This document shows positions 6,819-21,753 of a stretch of DNA of 22,266 nucleotides, piece after piece; position 1 is the first letter of the stretch, and every line of letters begins with the position of its first letter. The stretch is taken from the IMG/VR virus record IMGVR_UViG_3300022169_000036, positions 1-22,266 of that record; one strand, given 5' to 3'. The DNA is from a virus. Made by a program: the position numbers and the translations under genes. The notes beneath the pieces were generated by a model, which was not told where the DNA came from, did not search any database, and worked only from the letters and a program-made list of their open reading frames with translations.

Positions 6819-8981
6819 TTATTTAGGATATGCTCCTTGATTTGGCATATCTTTAGGTGCTATTTTTGAATCTTTATTTCCTCGTGGATTTGGTTTATAG
6901 CTGCTCGGAATACTGCTAACCTCTTCTCCTTTGCTAATATACTTTTCGGTTTTGTCTTTCATTCTATAAAGTTCTTCTCTGAAGAAATGTCCACAGCTTC
7001 TACCGCCCTTATATTTAAACAAATCGTATGCTAACCCCTTGTGACCGAATGACTTATTAACCCCATCTCTTGTGGCTTTGTCAATATCCTCCAAACGATA
7101 AACAACTCCGTTTCCTGTTCTTCGCATCATTGACTTGCAAAAATCTCTGCTATTGCCTGAACTATATTTTTCTTGGTAAGTGTAACGAACTTTGTAAAAA
7201 GATTTGTCTAAATAACTAAATCCATTAGGCTTACTTTTAATAAAATCAGCTAAACGTTCAATAGATGATTTCTTAGGCTTTATTAAACTGTTTGCCCAAT
7301 CTTCTATACTTTCTCCGTTTGCTTCCCTTGTATCAACTAATTCCCAATCGTTAAAGTCTATCTTTTCTCCTGCTAAAGCGTCAAGCATTTGCTCATCGTT
7401 AAAGTCTTTTTTTTTAGAAAGGTTTTCTTCATTGGTTAACCAAACTGAAGCATCTTCATCTGAGAATCCATACCCTGCTTTAAGCATCAATTTAGCTTGT
7501 GCTTCCGTTAACTGACCTTTGCCATACTTCCGAACTATACGTTCAATGCCTTGCATCTGTCTACCTGTTAGATTCTTCAAAGATTCGTTTACTTCCGTTG
7601 TTTCTTTTAAATCTTCTTCAGGATGCGTTTCTCCATCCATCACGCTGCCGTCAGGCATTGTATGAGTAGGTCTTGGTTGTTCTCCTTCAGGAAATAATGA
7701 TTCCGCTAATTCAGGAGTAAATTGTAGCATTTGAACAAGGAATGCTTTCGCTTGGTCAATAGTCAATATACCTTCGTTTACGTTGGTCATTATACCCAAT
7801 GCTGAAGAAATCTGCGCTCCGTTGTAACTTGCCTCTTTATCTTTTGCTATTAAATCAAGTTCAGCTTGTGTTTCATTGCCTTGTGGTTCTATACCTTCAG
7901 ATGTTGGCATATCAATAACGGAAACAACTGCTTCTTCTTTTACTTCTTTAAACCTTACATCTTCGCATTCTAATTCTGAAAATATAGGACTTAGAATTTC
8001 AAGGATTTGTTCCCTTCGTGGAATGACTATCTTTTCCATCATTCGCTCTGTGGCAAATACAAGTTCTTCTGTTTCGCTTGTGAATCCTGAACCTTTAGAA
8101 TTTAACCCACTTATCAAATTAGCTGATGGTATCCTGTGTGCTTTTAAGATTCCTATCTCAGCAGTTTCATATTGATTTTCGTAAATCTTATCAATACCTG
8201 TTAAATTAGGTGTTGAAAATGTTGGAGCATTACCACCTTGTCGGTAAAAGGTTGTGATTACCTTCCCTGCATTTGCTGCTCCTGTTGTTTGATGTTGTGT
8301 TTCAACAGAATCTTGTTTGTCAATTTCAGCATCTCCACTTGTTTCTTTGCTGATAATCATTGAAGGAAACATTCCGTTCTGCGCTCCGTGATTATGCATC
8401 ATATAAATCGCAATCTCTAATTCAATAGCATCTGCTGCTGAAAGGTATTTTGGTCTGCCGTAAGGTGTATTAAATGTTCCTGAATCGTAATAGTAAAGAA
8501 GTGACTTTGCGTCTTCGTTATTGTAACTATTTATGTAAGTGTTCTTGTAATTATAAATTGGACTTTTTGGATTCCAATCTTCCTTATAGCTAAATCTGCA
8601 AGGATAACCATCCTCTAATTCTACAACTCTGAAATGTGCTACGTTAATATTCTCAACCGCTTTAATCTCCATCAATGGATTTCTGCGAATCTCTAAGCTA
8701 ATGCTCTCCTGAACTAATAAACCTGAAGCAATTGAAAGCAGGTTTTTCTTTTTGAAGAACTCTTGCAATTTTGCATCCTTTTCTTTGTCCTCACAGGTTA
8801 ATCCTAAACCAACAATCTGTTGTGCCAAATCATCAATAATACATTGATGCGTTGGACTATTGTTGTAAAGGGAATTTAAGTAATTTGAAAAAAGGTTGTC
8901 AAATGCATTTGGATAATAGGTGCTTAACCTTCTTTGTCCTTGTATTGCATTTGTTTTATAGCGAGATAATTGAATCTTCAT
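6819..8981 (-). CDS. Portal protein with long C-terminal extension
   Basis: A 720-aa protein. Residues about 1-350 look like a PBSX-type portal, with a central region (about 170-325) holding TPYGRPKYLSAADAIELEIA, an early Asn/Gly-rich loop and the stem/crown region GSGFTSETEELVFATERMME. Residues about 470-515 hold TGRQMQGIERIVRKYGKGQL and AGYGFSDEDA, a helical segment common at portal C termini. Residues about 590-680 form an extra domain with Cys615, Cys663 and His665 (FCKSMMRRTGNG and KYKGGRSCGHFFREELY), and the last 40 residues are polar. The portal is the dodecameric ring through which DNA is packaged. Unusually, it lies downstream of the capsid gene. The start overlaps the stop of the 105-aa gene (TAATG). 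Confidence 0.85.
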   Translation of the reverse strand: MKIQLSRYKTNAIQGQRRLSTYYPNAFDNLFSNYLNSLYNNSPTHQCIIDDLAQQIVGLGLTCEDKEKDAKLQEFFKKKNLLSIASGLLVQESISLEIRRNPLMEIKAVENINVAHFRVVELEDGYPCRFSYKEDWNPKSPIYNYKNTYINSYNNEDAKSLLYYYDSGTFNTPYGRPKYLSAADAIELEIAIYMMHNHGAQNGMFPSMIISKETSGDAEIDKQDSVETQHQTTGAANAGKVITTFYRQGGNAPTFSTPNLTGIDKIYENQYETAEIGILKAHRIPSANLISGLNSKGSGFTSETEELVFATERMMEKIVIPRREQILEILSPIFSELECEDVRFKEVKEEAVVSVIDMPTSEGIEPQGNETQAELDLIAKDKEASYNGAQISSALGIMTNVNEGILTIDQAKAFLVQMLQFTPELAESLFPEGEQPRPTHTMPDGSVMDGETHPEEDLKETTEVNESLKNLTGRQMQGIERIVRKYGKGQLTEAQAKLMLKAGYGFSDEDASVWLTNEENLSKKKDFNDEQMLDALAGEKIDFNDWELVDTREANGESIEDWANSLIKPKKSSIERLADFIKSKPNGFSYLDKSFYKVRYTYQEKYSSGNSRDFCKSMMRRTGNGVVYRLEDIDKATRDGVNKSFGHKGLAYDLFKYKGGRSCGHFFREELYRMKDKTEKYISKGEEVSSIPSSYKPNPRGNKDSKIAPKDMPNQGAYPK

Positions 8982-11191: not shown

Positions 11192-12319
11192 TTAGTAATT
11201 TAATCTGTTGTTAAAATAATTTGCAACTGAACTTCCGCTTTCGTTGCTGAGTTTAGTGATTGATTTTGGTGCTACTTTTGACACCTTTGATAATTTTTCT
11301 GTGTTTAAGTTTGTTGCTTTTTCAAGACTTGAAAGTGTTTCTTTAACAGATGCCAACTCAGATTTCATTTCTTCGTTTTCTTTCATCATTGATTCAGCAG
11401 CTTCAACTTGTGCAGCAACTGCATCAACTAAAGTGTCAATTAAAGCACTTACGTCTTCTTTGGCAACTTCTTTTACTTCTTCAACAACTTCTTCTTCCAT
11501 CATCTTTTCTTCCTTGTCTTTCATCAAGTCTTCAGCTTCAGTCATAGAAACTAAAACTCCACCTTCAATAGTGATTGTTTTACCATCTACTTCAAAAGAA
11601 CCTTCAGCAGGAATAGTCATTGCTTCGTCAGCAAATACTTTAGCACCTTCTTCAAAAGATTCAGCATAAATTAATACTCCTTCACCAACATCCATAGATG
11701 CTAATTCAGTTTTTTTGCTCGGTATCATTTCACCGAGTTTCGTTAGAATAGCATCTAACTTTACATTGGTATTACTCATTTCTGATTTATTTAATTGTGT
11801 TAATTCGTGGTTCATATCCGCTTCCACAGATATACCTTTATAAGTTCCGTCTTTGATTTTTGCCCAAACATCATCGTTTGAAATATATGTTCCTTGCATC
11901 CAAGTTTTTGCAGGTACTTTAAAACCTAACTCAGTAGCTTTGTCATTTAATGGATTTTGTACTATCCAATTTTCTACCACATCAACACCATCCAACTTTT
12001 GGTTTTCGTTGTGTTCGCTATTCCATTCGCCTAATGTTACCTTTTTAAGCATATAGTCTTTGGCGATGTCTTCAATTGTTTCTCCACTAAAGTATATTTC
12101 ATATGGGTCACCTGCATCTGATACTCTTGGAATAACTTTGTCAGGAATAAGAACAGGCGAATAAATCATTCTCTTCTCATCTTGAACGGAAAGTTGAATA
12201 GGTTTATCATCTTTTGATAAAAAAATAAAGTCAGTTTCAATTGCAGGACTTTCTACTAATGCAATTCTAAACACCGAACTGTCCAACCAATCTTTTTTCT
12301 TAAGTTCAAATCTTTTCAT
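11192..12319 (-). CDS. XkdF-like prohead serine protease fused to scaffold
   Basis: The ATG at 12317-12319 is chosen, giving 375 aa. An upstream in-frame ATG (12392-12394) would run through the promoter region. Residues 1-170 are the protease: RIALVESPAIETDFIFLSKD, then GEWNSEHN with His103 and KGISVEADMNH with Ser164. His plus Ser in 'GhSVEA' is the pattern of XkdF-type head maturation proteases. Residues about 210-260 form a small beta-rich insert (DGKTITIEGGVLVSMTEAED). Residues about 265-340 are an acidic coiled coil (EEVVEEVKEVAKEDVSALID), the likely scaffold that is removed on maturation. The capsid gene follows at once. It cleaves itself and capsid or scaffold chains during head assembly. 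Confidence 0.85.
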   Translation of the reverse strand: MKRFELKKKDWLDSSVFRIALVESPAIETDFIFLSKDDKPIQLSVQDEKRMIYSPVLIPDKVIPRVSDAGDPYEIYFSGETIEDIAKDYMLKKVTLGEWNSEHNENQKLDGVDVVENWIVQNPLNDKATELGFKVPAKTWMQGTYISNDDVWAKIKDGTYKGISVEADMNHELTQLNKSEMSNTNVKLDAILTKLGEMIPSKKTELASMDVGEGVLIYAESFEEGAKVFADEAMTIPAEGSFEVDGKTITIEGGVLVSMTEAEDLMKDKEEKMMEEEVVEEVKEVAKEDVSALIDTLVDAVAAQVEAAESMMKENEEMKSELASVKETLSSLEKATNLNTEKLSKVSKVAPKSITKLSNESGSSVANYFNNRLNY

Positions 12320-12324
12320 TAACG

Positions 12325-12332
12325 CAAAATTA
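12325..12332 (-). promoter_or_regulatory. Candidate -7 element of the head operon promoter
   Basis: The minus strand has TAATTTTG, a match to TAnnTTTG, only 5 nt upstream of the protease ATG. No TTG is found at the expected distance, so the match is weaker than at other sites. If it is used, the transcript would start at or next to the ATG. Confidence 0.4.
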
Positions 12333-12352
12333 CAGAACAATACAACCTTTAT

Positions 12353-12383
12353 TTGCATCCTTTCCTTGCTTTGCTTATTTTTG
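12353..12383 (+). promoter_or_regulatory. Bacteroidota-type promoter of the plus-strand HTH gene
   Basis: TTG (12353-12355), 20 nt, then TATTTTTG (12376-12383), both fitting the Bacteroidota consensus. The ATG at 12388 is 4 nt beyond the -7 element, so a leaderless or near-leaderless transcript is expected. It is divergent from the head operon promoter within a 68-nt gap. Confidence 0.55.
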
Positions 12384-12387
12384 CAAT

Positions 12388-12576
12388 ATGGCAAAACCGA
12401 TAAAATACTTTTTAGATTTGGAAATACTCAGGAAGGTTGAAGTCTGTGAGATGATAGGATGCTCTTTAAGAACCATTGACAACTACGTCAAGAAAGGCTT
12501 ACCGATTCACAAACCGACAAACGCAGCACCTTACTATTTAGCTTCTGAAGTTTACGATTGGATTCAAAGCAATTAA
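12388..12576 (+). CDS. Small HTH DNA-binding protein (excisionase/MerR/Nu1-like)
   Basis: A 62-aa protein with a single helix-turn-helix at about residues 15-38 (VEVCEMIGCSLRTIDNYVKK then GLPIHK), followed by a small wing and final helix with LASEVYDWI. This short winged helix-turn-helix layout is found in excisionases, MerR-like regulators and the N-terminal part of lambda Nu1-type terminase small subunits. It is the only convincing plus-strand gene here, sits between the tail and head modules and is divergent from the head operon. A regulator of that promoter, or of itself, is therefore plausible. A terminase role is unlikely because another terminase small subunit is present at 21373-21753. 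No integrase is nearby to support an excisionase. Confidence 0.75.
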   Translation: MAKPIKYFLDLEILRKVEVCEMIGCSLRTIDNYVKKGLPIHKPTNAAPYYLASEVYDWIQSN

Positions 12577-12587
12577 AATTTAGGCAT

Positions 12588-12615
12588 AAAAAAACCCTGC
12601 ATTTCTGCAAGGTTT
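12588..12615 (-). terminator. Intrinsic terminator of the 64-aa gene, between convergent genes
   Basis: AAACC-C-TGCA, a short loop and TGCA-A-GGTTT (12592-12615) form a stem with one mismatch. On the minus strand it runs into seven T (12588-12594), ending the 64-aa gene. The plus-strand HTH gene ends 11 nt before it, and some termination from that side is also possible. The flank at 12575-12597 is 22/23 identical to 1944-1966. Confidence 0.7.
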
Positions 12616-12636
12616 CTGATTTATCTCGATACAACT

Positions 12637-12831
12637 TTAAGAGTTTGCAAGTTTATTTTTTGCTCTTTTCACCGCCTTGTTGTATTCGCTTTCGTTGTTG
12701 TAGTGGTAAGTTCTGTTTATCTTTTCATTAACTCTATTAAAGTTAAAACTTAAACCGTTATCTTTAATTACTCTGTTGATGTAAAAGGTTGAGTTACCTA
12801 CCACATCTGTCTTAATTGTCATTGCTTCCAT
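12637..12831 (-). CDS. Unknown 64-aa protein in a self-contained unit (moron-like)
   Basis: A 64-residue protein, MEAMTIKTDVVGNSTFYINR onward, with many Asn, Tyr and Lys residues and a basic C terminus (KAVKRAKNKLANS). There is no membrane segment or motif I recognise. It has its own promoter (12868-12897) and its own terminator (12588-12615), and it separates the tail operon from the head operon. This arrangement, one small gene with private signals inside a late region, is typical of accessory 'moron' genes, which often affect the host or competing phages. It could instead be a small early regulator. Function unknown. Confidence 0.65.
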   Translation of the reverse strand: MEAMTIKTDVVGNSTFYINRVIKDNGLSFNFNRVNEKINRTYHYNNESEYNKAVKRAKNKLANS

Positions 12832-12867
12832 CTTGTTGTTTTTTGTTATTACTTTTTTATTACCCTA

Positions 12868-12897
12868 CAAATATACAAATACTTTTTACTTCTACAA
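12868..12897 (-). promoter_or_regulatory. Bacteroidota-type promoter of the 64-aa gene
   Basis: Minus strand: TTG (12895-12897), 19 nt, TATATTTG (12868-12875), an exact match to the consensus and its preferred spacing. The first 20 nt of the core (12868-12887) are identical to 242-261. The ATG is 36 nt downstream of the -7 element. Confidence 0.65.
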
Positions 12898-12926
12898 CTA
12901 TTTTATAAAAAAACTTTAAAAAAAAA

Positions 12927-14762
12927 TTATTTACCAATCTTTACAAGGTCATCAACCCTGTTGTCTAAGGATGCAGAGTCTTTGATGTCCTGCTGAATTA
13001 CAACTGCCCTAACTGAACCGAATCCATCTCTTCCACCTACACCTTGATTGGTAGCGTTAAAGTTTGGTATTCGTGGAGTTTCTGTTGATGGTCTTGCACC
13101 TCCGCCACCTGCACCACCTGAAACAGTTGGAGTTGAAGAAGAACCTGTTTTAGTGCTTAGTATTTTTTTAACTTGTAACAATCCAAAAACACCTGTTGCA
13201 ACTGCTTGTGCTATTGCGTAGCCCGGAATCGCTGCGCCCGGACTTGTTTGTGCTGCCCTTAGCGAACCTGCTATTGCTGCATATGTGTCAAAGGTTGCCT
13301 GTGCTACTGCAATACCTTTTTGTGCTTTCTCATTCTTTCCTGCTAATTCTTGCAAGATGTTAAACCCTGAACTAACTAATCCAACTTTTATATCAAACAA
13401 TGTTTTTGCATCAGCCATCTGTTTATCATCGGAAGCCTTTTGAGTAGCATCTATTTTATCTTGTGCTTCCGCATCTATTGCCGTAAGTTCATTTTGATAT
13501 TCTTTTTCAATTGCTGCTAAAGCATCTTTTTTTGCTTGCTCATCTGTAATTGCTAATTCTGCATCAAGCAACCTTTGGTCACGCTCTTGTAATGCTTCCG
13601 CTTTTTTTCTTTCAAATTCTGTCTTACCCACTAATGCCAATTCATCAACAATTTGTTTCTGCTCTTTTAGTAAAGAATTTCTATTGGTCAACTGCTCCGC
13701 TTCAAATCCTGCAACTTGTGCTTTCGTAGCAGCATATTCGTTTTCTGCAACTTGTAATGCAACTTTTGCTTCTTGACTATTCTTGTCTAAAGCAAGTTGT
13801 CCTTTTGCTGCATCAATAGAAACCTGTGCCAATTTTAACTGTTCCGCTTGTTGCTTTTGCAATACAACTGCCAACTCTTCATTGGCTTTAATTCTTTCTT
13901 TAAATGTTAATCTGTCATCATCTCGAATCTGTCTTAACTTTTCAGCTTGTAAATCATACTTTTCAATTAACCCTCTAATTCCTGCTTCTGCTAATTCTGC
14001 TGATTTTGCAAGTTCAGTATTTGTTTTTACGGCTTCATAAGTTGCTTCAATGCTTATTTCTTTAACCCCTTCAACTACACCTTCAGCAACTTTTCCAACC
14101 TCACTTATAGCTCCTGAAAAGTTTTCAACTATATCTTTACCTGCATCAACTGCATCAGATGCTACTTCTAAAATATTTGTTTTAGTTTCTAAAATTGCAG
14201 CATTTAATTCTTTAATTGTTTCAGGGTCTTTATCTCCAAAAAAACTTTGCTCCCAAGCCAATTGTGCTTTTTGTAATCCTAAACTTAAAGCATAAAATTC
14301 AAGTTTTATAGGTGTCAATACAAGTGTGAGTAATCCCTTTGCAACCTTTGTTAACTTATCAAATCCACCTGTTGCATCACTTACATTTTCAAACACGTCA
14401 GTAATTACATCAGCAACCTGTGTTCCTATTGCTGAAATAGTGCCTAAGACATTTGTAAAGACATCCATTACCTTTTGGTTATTTTTGAATGCAGCAACTA
14501 ACAATCCAATCACCCCAACTAATAAACCAATACCTGCCGCTTTTATTGCACCACCAAGTGCTTTGAATCCTTTACCTGCTTTTCCTGTTGCTTTAGCAGT
14601 CATATTCCCTGCCTTCTTTCCTGCTTGTCCTGAAGCCTTTTGATTCGCAGTAGCTTCTTTTTGCGTATCAACAAATTCTTCTGACTTCTTGACAAGTTTA
14701 CCCATTGAACTTAACCCTTCGGTTGTGTCAACTACTGTCTTAACTTCTAATATTTCTGCCAT
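12927..14762 (-). CDS. Tail tape measure protein
   Basis: A 611-aa protein. An N-terminal helical part rich in Ala, Gly and Lys (about 1-68) is followed by a hydrophobic segment (about 69-92, GGAIKAAGIGLLVGVIGLLV). Then come a further helical stretch, a long coiled coil (about 240-470, with EAEQLTNRNSLLKEQKQIVD and QERDQRLLDAELAITDEQAK), an Ala-rich patch (FDTYAAIAGSLRAAQTSPGA), and a Gly/Ser/Pro-rich end (TVSGGAGGGG). This is the usual layout of a tape measure: it sets tail length and may form a channel in the host membrane. At about 1.5 Å per residue it would allow a tail of at most about 90 nm. It is the last gene of the tail operon, which is unusual. Confidence 0.85.
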   Translation of the reverse strand: MAEILEVKTVVDTTEGLSSMGKLVKKSEEFVDTQKEATANQKASGQAGKKAGNMTAKATGKAGKGFKALGGAIKAAGIGLLVGVIGLLVAAFKNNQKVMDVFTNVLGTISAIGTQVADVITDVFENVSDATGGFDKLTKVAKGLLTLVLTPIKLEFYALSLGLQKAQLAWEQSFFGDKDPETIKELNAAILETKTNILEVASDAVDAGKDIVENFSGAISEVGKVAEGVVEGVKEISIEATYEAVKTNTELAKSAELAEAGIRGLIEKYDLQAEKLRQIRDDDRLTFKERIKANEELAVVLQKQQAEQLKLAQVSIDAAKGQLALDKNSQEAKVALQVAENEYAATKAQVAGFEAEQLTNRNSLLKEQKQIVDELALVGKTEFERKKAEALQERDQRLLDAELAITDEQAKKDALAAIEKEYQNELTAIDAEAQDKIDATQKASDDKQMADAKTLFDIKVGLVSSGFNILQELAGKNEKAQKGIAVAQATFDTYAAIAGSLRAAQTSPGAAIPGYAIAQAVATGVFGLLQVKKILSTKTGSSSTPTVSGGAGGGGARPSTETPRIPNFNATNQGVGGRDGFGSVRAVVIQQDIKDSASLDNRVDDLVKIGK

Positions 14763-19933: not shown

Positions 19934-21380
19934 AACTCGGTTGTTTTGGGTTTTTAAATACTATATTCTTTTCAATTATGCCTGTAAGCACATCTGCTGC
20001 ATCATCGTGTGCATTTGCCCTAAAGTTCTTCTTAAACCCTGTCAGATGCTTCCAAAACATCCCCCACCTATTATGCCAATCCTTTGGAAATAAGATGTGC
20101 CTTTGGACTTGTGCTGAGTTGGAAACAATCCTTGCTTCTTTATTCATAGACTGATGGAAACTATTGATTGCAGCTTTGGTGTTTTTCTGAATGTTAATCG
20201 CAAAGTACCTACCTCCGTTATTGCTTTCAAAGTCCGCTTGTTTTGTTCCTGCATCATTCAGCATCTTTGGCAGCATAACCTCAGTTGCCTCCATAGAATC
20301 CATCGTGTAAAGTATGTCGGTAATATAGATGTCATCGCCAACCCTGTCGTAACAAACCGAGCAAAGGTAATCAGCACCTGCGTCAGCCGTATCAGTATAG
20401 TTTCCTTTCTTACTTACGTTCTCAGGTATGTGGTCATAGGTTCGCCATTCTCCTGAGTAAAGCAATCCTTCCTTTGATGTTGGATTCCCTTGATGTAAGC
20501 ATTCAAATTTGTTTGGGTCAATCCTGCGTTCCTCAGTTAGCTTTTTAATTGAATGTCTATTTTCCCATAACGCTTCCCCAACTGCTCTTTCATCAATAGG
20601 CATCTTTTCGCTTGTTTTAATAGCTTCAAAGTTTAGCTTTACCCATTCGTTAGGGTTAAATGAATCTAAGTCATCTAAGGAAGTGATTACATTTACCTTT
20701 TCGTTTTCTTCAATCCTTCCAATTACATCTTCCTCGTGCCACCTTGTAAAAACAATTAACTGCTGACTATTATTGTGCAGCCTCGTCTTGACAACCGAAG
20801 TGTACCAATCCCAAGCTGATTCACGAATTACAGGAGAAGAACCTTCCTGATAATCCTTATAAAGGTCATCCATTATTACGCAATCCAAAGTTATAGAAGT
20901 TAATGCTCCGCCTCTACCAACTGCCTTCAACATTCCCTTGTGTCCAACTATTTCAAACTCTTCTGAGTTCCTAAGAAATGAACTTGCAACTGTTACAACA
21001 TTGCTTGAGTTTAGTTTCGTTTCAGGGAATAAAGCAGCGTATTCAGGAGTATCAATTATCCGTTGGTTATCTCGGTTGAATTTACGAGCAATGGTTGCGT
21101 TGTATGAAGTGACTGCAAGTCTTAAATTAGGATTTAGCCCAAACATAAAAGAAGGCAACCGCCTTGTGCTACCTTCAGACTTTCCGTGTTGCGGAGGCAT
21201 TGATACCATCAGCTTCTTAATCTTGCCTTTTGCGAACCTGTCTAAAATTTCGTAATAGGCTTTGTGATAAGGCTGCCATTCAAAATCTGTTGTAGTGTAG
21301 CTTGTGTAATCTTTTAGGTTAGTCCTTGCTTTTCTCCTTGCAATTTCCTCCTCAATTATTACTTCTTCAAGGTTAGCCAT
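19833..21380 (-). CDS. terL: Terminase large subunit
   Basis: A 515-aa DNA packaging motor subunit. ATPase half: a Walker A-type MPPQHGKSEG at about 61-70, a Walker B IMDD at about 169-172 with the catalytic acidic pair, and a coupling region FTRWHEEDVIGRI (about 211-223). Nuclease half: YTDTADAGADYLC with the first Asp cluster (about 328-340), ESNNGGRYFAI with Glu385, and HDDAADVLTGI with Asp459/460 as the third metal-binding acidic group. Length and order are typical. It cuts concatemeric DNA and drives it through the portal. The ATG overlaps the terS stop by 8 nt. The last residues (RNGAGSDFF) lie in the 101-nt overlap with the next gene, and the stop follows a run of seven T. Confidence 0.95.
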   Translation of the reverse strand: MANLEEVIIEEEIARRKARTNLKDYTSYTTTDFEWQPYHKAYYEILDRFAKGKIKKLMVSMPPQHGKSEGSTRRLPSFMFGLNPNLRLAVTSYNATIARKFNRDNQRIIDTPEYAALFPETKLNSSNVVTVASSFLRNSEEFEIVGHKGMLKAVGRGGALTSITLDCVIMDDLYKDYQEGSSPVIRESAWDWYTSVVKTRLHNNSQQLIVFTRWHEEDVIGRIEENEKVNVITSLDDLDSFNPNEWVKLNFEAIKTSEKMPIDERAVGEALWENRHSIKKLTEERRIDPNKFECLHQGNPTSKEGLLYSGEWRTYDHIPENVSKKGNYTDTADAGADYLCSVCYDRVGDDIYITDILYTMDSMEATEVMLPKMLNDAGTKQADFESNNGGRYFAINIQKNTKAAINSFHQSMNKEARIVSNSAQVQRHILFPKDWHNRWGMFWKHLTGFKKNFRANAHDDAADVLTGIIEKNIVFKNPKQPSYENTHTKFLKGDSTGFNAATWNAERNGAGSDFF

Positions 21381-21753
21381 CAGTTACCCTTTTAGCTTGT
21401 TTTAGACGTTCCTCAAGTTCTTCATCAGTTAGGTTTGACAAATCAAGGTTCTTGTTTGTGTTTTCAGTTTCCATTCTTTCAATGTAACCTCTTTTTTTTC
21501 CTTTGGTTTTTAGGTAGAAAATAGTTGATGTCGGAACATTGTCTTTTATCTGCTGATGCAATTGAGTTTCCGCAAAGTCCAAAGCTACGTTTTCAATATC
21601 CTTTACCTGCTTAGCAAAATCTTCGTCATCTTTTAGCCATCCGTAAAATGTAGTTCTTCCTACTCCGACCTTTTTACAGGCAGTTGTGACGATTCCAAGC
21701 GAAGATTCTAACGCTTCAATAACTGCCTTTTTATGTTGTTCCGTTTTGTTCAT
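21373..21753 (-). CDS. terS: Terminase small subunit
   Basis: A 126-aa protein with an N-terminal helix-turn-helix at about residues 8-42 (KKAVIEALESSLGIVTTACK then KVGVGRTTFYGWLKDDEDF), a helical middle (DFAETQLHQQIKDNVPTSTI), and an acidic, Leu-rich C terminus (LSNLTDEELEERLKQAKRVT). This is the usual layout of small terminases: DNA recognition, oligomerisation, contact with the large subunit. The large subunit gene follows with an 8-nt overlap. It would recognise the packaging start site. The upstream neighbour ends 2 nt before this ATG. Confidence 0.88.
   Translation of the reverse strand: MNKTEQHKKAVIEALESSLGIVTTACKKVGVGRTTFYGWLKDDEDFAKQVKDIENVALDFAETQLHQQIKDNVPTSTIFYLKTKGKKRGYIERMETENTNKNLDLSNLTDEELEERLKQAKRVTDG

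Follow-up and report, generated by a model that had tools for sequence, protein, structure and literature searches.

A probable moron beside a group-wide helix-turn-helix gene at the tape-measure/protease seam of a marine Bacteroidota phage

Related systems and the layout of the phage

Phage morons are complete transcription units added to phage genomes, as discussed for SPP1, whose late region is interrupted by orf 8-10 and oriR (PMC6316719). The locus described here resembles both. Like a moron, the gene termed o64 is one small gene with its own predicted promoter and hairpin terminator, lies between conserved genes, and is missing from near-identical relatives; unlike phage morons, its promoter carries the early-gene motif of its own phage group. 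As in SPP1, a syntenic virion-assembly region is broken by a block with transcription signals on either side. Here, however, the fixed part is a single opposite-strand helix-turn-helix (HTH) gene, and no origin was identified.

A second comparison is provided by the Nonlabens phages P12024S and P12024L (genus Inhavirus). By protein similarity, these share the order protease, capsid, portal ... tape measure with the window, which is the whole stretch of DNA that was analysed (the complete IMG/VR record IMGVR_UViG_3300022169_000036, 22,266 bases), and they likewise carry opposite-strand genes between tape measure and protease. In contrast to the window, P12024S has ten different minus-strand genes (gp50-gp59) at this place and no HTH homologue, and protein identity between these phages and the window is only 21-33%. 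At the level of the protein, the size and predicted fold of the HTH gene product resemble those of BldC, excisionases, and the DNA-binding domains of terminase small subunits, although identity to these small winged-HTH proteins is 17-29% and the matches fall below curated family cut-offs.

The window derives from a marine Bacteroidota phage. A census of non-overlapping open reading frames (ORFs) gives 28 on the minus strand and one, the HTH gene, on the plus strand. The minus-strand genes include those for the terminase small and large subunits, tail genes, a tape-measure-like gene, an S78_2/XkdF-type head protease, a capsid-like gene, the portal, fibre-like genes, and an M15-type endolysin candidate. 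Searches of the window found no tRNA, no Rfam match, and no match in a DNA search of phage records. The locus itself is the seam between the tape-measure gene and the protease gene (Table 1). The first-pass annotation described two small genes here, with the HTH gene divergent from the head operon across a 68-nt gap, and the ORF coordinates confirm this layout. Its further proposal that both genes break the late region stands in part: the HTH gene, the sole plus-strand gene, does reverse the direction, whereas o64 runs the same way as the late genes.

Table 1. Positions of the features at the tape-measure/protease seam, in window coordinates
Feature	Position	Strand	Basis or remark
Head maturation protease (Peptidase_S78_2, XkdF-like)	11192..12319	-	Family matches; first gene of the head operon
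Divergent gap, HTH gene / protease-head operon, 68 nt	12320..12387		ORF coordinates; protease start at 12319
Predicted -7 box TAATTTTG of protease/head operon	12325..12332	-	Lacks a TTG at the usual spacing
Candidate operator, imperfect inverted repeat ATACAA-N7-TTGCAT	12340..12358		TTGTAT in most relatives; weak evidence
Predicted HTH promoter TTG-N20-TATTTTTG	12353..12383	+	Bacteroidota-type pattern
Winged helix-turn-helix protein, 62 aa	12388..12576	+	The window's sole plus-strand gene; fixed throughout the phage group
Insert with o64, promoter and terminator, about 350 nt	12577..12926		Empty site of 0-8 nt in relatives
o64 3' hairpin and U-run, predicted intrinsic terminator	12587..12617	-	Folding, z -2.8
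o64, 64 aa (possibly 61 aa from 12822), no named family	12637..12831	-	ORF call, family scans
Predicted o64 promoter TTG-N19-TATATTTG	12868..12897	-	Contains the group's early-gene motif TTTGTATATTTG (12868-12879)
Copies of TTTGTATATTTG	242-253, 1910-1921, 12868-12879	-	Motif count
Tape-measure-like tail protein	12927..14762	-	Its stop abuts the HTH stop in empty-site relatives

Relatives were gathered by scans of IMG/VR and of one genome collection. Twelve relative records reach past the protease start (L002-L011, L028, and L046), among which L002/L003, L006/L007, and L008/L009 are near-duplicates. Neither a profile scan for further HTH relatives nor one that used the group's most distant protease added a group member. 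The closest relative is L046 (JAOKCF010000017.1), a 29.6-kb contig from a Vicingaceae single-cell assembly with 99% identity to the window in TerL and capsid and 98% in the protease. Its census is alike in kind: 41 of 42 ORFs lie on one strand, and the HTH gene stands alone on the other. The ends of this contig show no overlap, and it may be incomplete; compared with L124, however, its genes come round to the terminase genes again. The presence of a near-identical phage on a Vicingaceae single-cell contig suggests the host family: the host probably belongs to Vicingaceae or is closely related to it, although phage contigs in single-cell assemblies can stem from infection or from contamination.

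Two other genes are themselves variable. The tape-measure gene is a mosaic, with about 38% identity to the window in L002, L004, and L046 as compared to 87% in L005, despite close flanking genes. The second half of the portal gene (6819-8981) is variable or split among relatives, with two separate matching parts in L005, L008, and L028. A separate observation concerns record IMGVR_UViG_3300020182_000149, the source of L124 and L005: its first 682 bases (L124 1-682) match its end (the end of L005) at 94% identity, which may reflect a strain-mixed circular assembly.

The insertion site and the o64 transcription unit

In eight of the relative records (L002, L003, L004, L005, L006, L007, L011, and L046, amounting to six distinct versions), the stops of the tape-measure and HTH genes are 0-8 nt apart. 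These empty sites indicate that the window carries an insert of about 350 nt, at which no target duplication is seen. The remaining members hold other contents at the seam: plus-strand genes with their own promoter in L008, about 140 nt with no called gene in L010, and a 110-aa ORF in L028. As the contents differ in this way, the seam is an insertion hotspot in which relatives hold different cargo. Window and empty-site relatives thus form a clean pair, occupied and empty, that documents the gain of a single gene among uncultured marine Bacteroidota phages.

The insert has the architecture of a self-contained unit. The proposal that the 64-aa gene has its own promoter and terminator is borne out at the level of prediction. 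Upstream, the pattern TTG-N19-TATATTTG is present, which in this exact form is expected 0.03 times in the entire window. Downstream, the minus-strand RNA of 12577-12636 folds with -15.6 kcal/mol as compared to a shuffle mean of -8.4 (z -2.8), forming an 11-bp stem that ends in a U run. Taken together, o64 fits a moron in an insertion hotspot, given its predicted promoter and terminator.

The promoter also connects o64 to the rest of the phage group. The motif TTTGTATATTTG within it has three copies in the window where 0.03 would be expected, each directly upstream of a start codon, and it also precedes early-region genes in L046, L130, and L124 as well as the cargo of L008. It is therefore a probable early promoter motif of the phage group, as judged from its placement. 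As the o64 promoter holds the motif that precedes the early genes of the group, o64 is probably made early in infection. This group can now be given a candidate early promoter motif and, in Vicingaceae, a likely host family.

The o64 protein is basic (pI 9.8) and has a confident structural model (pLDDT 90.6), in which four strands are followed by a C-terminal helix (beta-beta-beta-beta-alpha). Its description as a protein of no recognised family holds: family scans, including Pfam, give no match, and structure searches against the PDB and viral structures return nothing significant. The top Foldseek row is a Pur-alpha repeat (E 0.2 over 38 columns, not significant), with Z at most 4.8. Nucleic-acid binding would be a guess for its activity.

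Three homologues are present in IMG/VR (L034, L035, and L036), in other phage contexts and with 53-55% identity. Their start corresponds to the fourth codon of o64, suggesting that the true start may be 12822, which would give a 61-aa protein. Elsewhere, o64 is found neither by tblastn in phage records nor in 46 genomes of the order. Among 395 Bacteroidota genomes, two partial matches lie inside longer frames (333 and 628 aa) and are taken as chance. In base composition, the o64 ORF has 31.8% GC as compared to 35.1% for the genome, and about 21% of equal-size windows are equally low.

The homologues (L034 5990-6200, L035 5960-6200, and L036 270-500) adjoin small genes that are separated by short G+C-rich hairpins. 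Together with a recurring AAACAAATATT-ATG leader, this gives the appearance of a row of small gene cassettes.

History and fold of the HTH gene

If the two genes formed one co-acquired accessory island, as the first-pass annotation suggested, they should be found together in relatives. They are adjacent and small, each has a promoter, and the late region is otherwise unidirectional, all of which would suit a joint arrival. The HTH gene, however, occurs in every one of the 12 relative records covering the site, in identical place and orientation with 40-98% identity, and o64 is present in none of the 12. The o64 homologues, in turn, occur in unrelated phages with no HTH gene. The expected co-occurrence thus fails, and the single-island reading, already contradicted by these counts, is very improbable. 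What survives of it is that o64 was inserted and that the HTH gene is probably an older insertion; the two have separate histories.

The older insertion is suggested by more distant phages found with a protease alignment. Among the 62 records with a readable large gene preceding the protease, this gene lies on the same strand and ends within 120 nt of the protease in 56; the other six have larger gaps before the protease. In L047-L051, tblastn identifies the preceding gene as a tape-measure homologue, except in L050, where only the protease matches. As distant relatives mostly join tape measure and protease, the joined order is probably ancestral, with the HTH gene added at the base of the group. 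The ten opposite-strand genes of P12024S at the same place suggest that the seam is prone to gene gain well beyond the present phage group. A lysogeny module was considered at this site in the distant record L033 and dropped, as its opposite-strand genes are not integrase-like by eye.

These data are best accommodated by two independent layers, a recent moron (o64) and an older, fixed HTH gene that is likely a local regulator; this explanation is considered moderately probable. Here, o64 would be a recent, self-contained gain at the convergent tape-measure/HTH seam, made up of a promoter, a single small gene, and a terminator, with a role that is probably accessory in the host cell and perhaps involves nucleic-acid binding. 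The HTH gene would be older, now fixed, and opposed to the late operon. Its product would bind the short divergent gap, limiting its own transcription and modulating the start of the head operon. The moron's function and timing, along with the DNA target and the regulation, are what we infer. Among the new facts, the empty sites stand out most, along with the differing ages of the genes, the motif of the early promoters, and the family to which the host probably belongs. The pattern as a whole is ordinary, with no departure from known kinds of phage genome evolution.

The HTH protein itself matches HTH_17 with 18.7 bits (curated cut-off 27), MerR_1 with 17.3 bits (curated cut-off 21.6), and phrog_668 (HTH DNA-binding) with E 9.8e-6; its weak matches span HTH_17, MerR, excisionase, and terminase families. 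In phage records, tblastn gives weak Aeromonas matches only. The AlphaFold model (pLDDT 87.9) is confident in two of five models only, and its structural matches are phage terminase small-subunit DNA-binding domains, excisionases, and BldC (7lw0, Z 7.8, 1.5 A over 51 residues; BldC 6ama, Z 6.6). The protein is of winged-HTH type by its model, with middling Z values that make this a fold-level assignment only. The modelled fold indicates DNA binding and leaves the role unspecified. As packaging proteins and excisionases are among the nearest structures, regulation is not the sole reading.

One alternative would be a packaging factor, that is, a second, DNA-site-binding terminase part with a packaging start in or near the divergent gap. 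The best PDB sequence and structure matches are indeed terminase small-subunit DNA-binding domains (7lw0, E 0.0054 and the Z given above; 1j9i, E 0.0087), and the P12024S record starts just before the protease gene. Such record starts can be arbitrary, however, and fold matches at such Z values are common. In addition, an ordinary small-subunit candidate that matches small-subunit families adjoins TerL (21373-21753). The HTH gene lies 7 kb away, and is thus neither next to TerL nor the sole small-subunit candidate; the L046 contig, moreover, breaks at TerS rather than at the gap. A packaging role is accordingly judged unlikely.

Excisionase function, either left from or serving a temperate life style, would likewise suit a winged HTH of this type. 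The Pukovnik Xis (Z 7.6) and RdfS (Z 6.4) are among the structural matches, phrog_66 and phrog_4691 match as well, and one of two distant cellular relatives is near an integrase-like ORF, as judged by eye. However, none of the larger proteins that were scanned, from the window and from L046/L130, matches an integrase family, and excisionase function is given only a slim chance.

The HTH gene might also be a passenger that plays no part in phage regulation and instead targets, for example, a host promoter or superinfecting phages. This would be in keeping with the small DNA-binding proteins of this type that are common in Bacteroidota mobile elements (two distant matches). Against this, position, orientation, and gap are fixed in all relatives despite divergence to 40% identity, whereas the neighbouring cargo varies; a passenger is thought improbable. 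This retention of gene, orientation, and gap, while the neighbour on the other side changes, is also why local regulation is preferred.

The divergent gap and candidate regulation

Local regulation by the HTH protein would act at the divergent gap, where -7-type boxes flank both sides of a short conserved stretch. The box TAnnTTTG is the -7 box of the main sigma factor, as supported by transcription-start mapping in Flavobacterium psychrophilum (PMC9723704). As generic sigma-70 scanning picked up neither the HTH and o64 promoters nor the o64 terminator, Bacteroidota-type patterns were used instead; the chance of any TTG/-7 site in the relevant gap is about 0.4-0.6% for each of these two genes. 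The TAnnTTTG box upstream of the HTH gene is retained in all lineages. On the protease side, the TAATTTTG box is invariant in seven close relatives, with the variants TAATTTTA in L008, L010, and L011 and TAACTTTG in L028. As the HTH and protease boxes lie a few bases before the start codons, both messages are possibly leaderless or nearly so.

The gap is also 68 nt long in five close relatives and 10 nt longer in L005 and L046. This 10-nt insertion is confined to the HTH side, leaving the spacing to the protease box unchanged. Mean column identity across the gap is 87% in close relatives, in a small sample of seven that includes some near-duplicate records. Within it, the arms of the candidate operator vary at one column and the N7 centre is more variable. 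This pattern and the one-sided insertion are hints at most. As the entire gap is conserved, the footprint of an operator is weak. An exact search finds one copy in the window against 0.31 expected, which is not significant, and in more distant lineages ATACAA-N7-TTG(C/T)AT is not visible. That the HTH protein may control the head operon, as first proposed, is plausible, and the HTH gene is a small, testable candidate regulator of the head genes.

A different form of control would be a one-gene switch, in which the HTH gene, as the sole opposite-strand gene of a phage of about 30 kb, opposes the late operon. In most relatives there is no terminator between the tape-measure and HTH genes, so late read-through could run antisense through the HTH gene into the head operon, silencing HTH and releasing the head genes. 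This form is regarded as rather doubtful. In the window, the o64 terminator would break such read-through.
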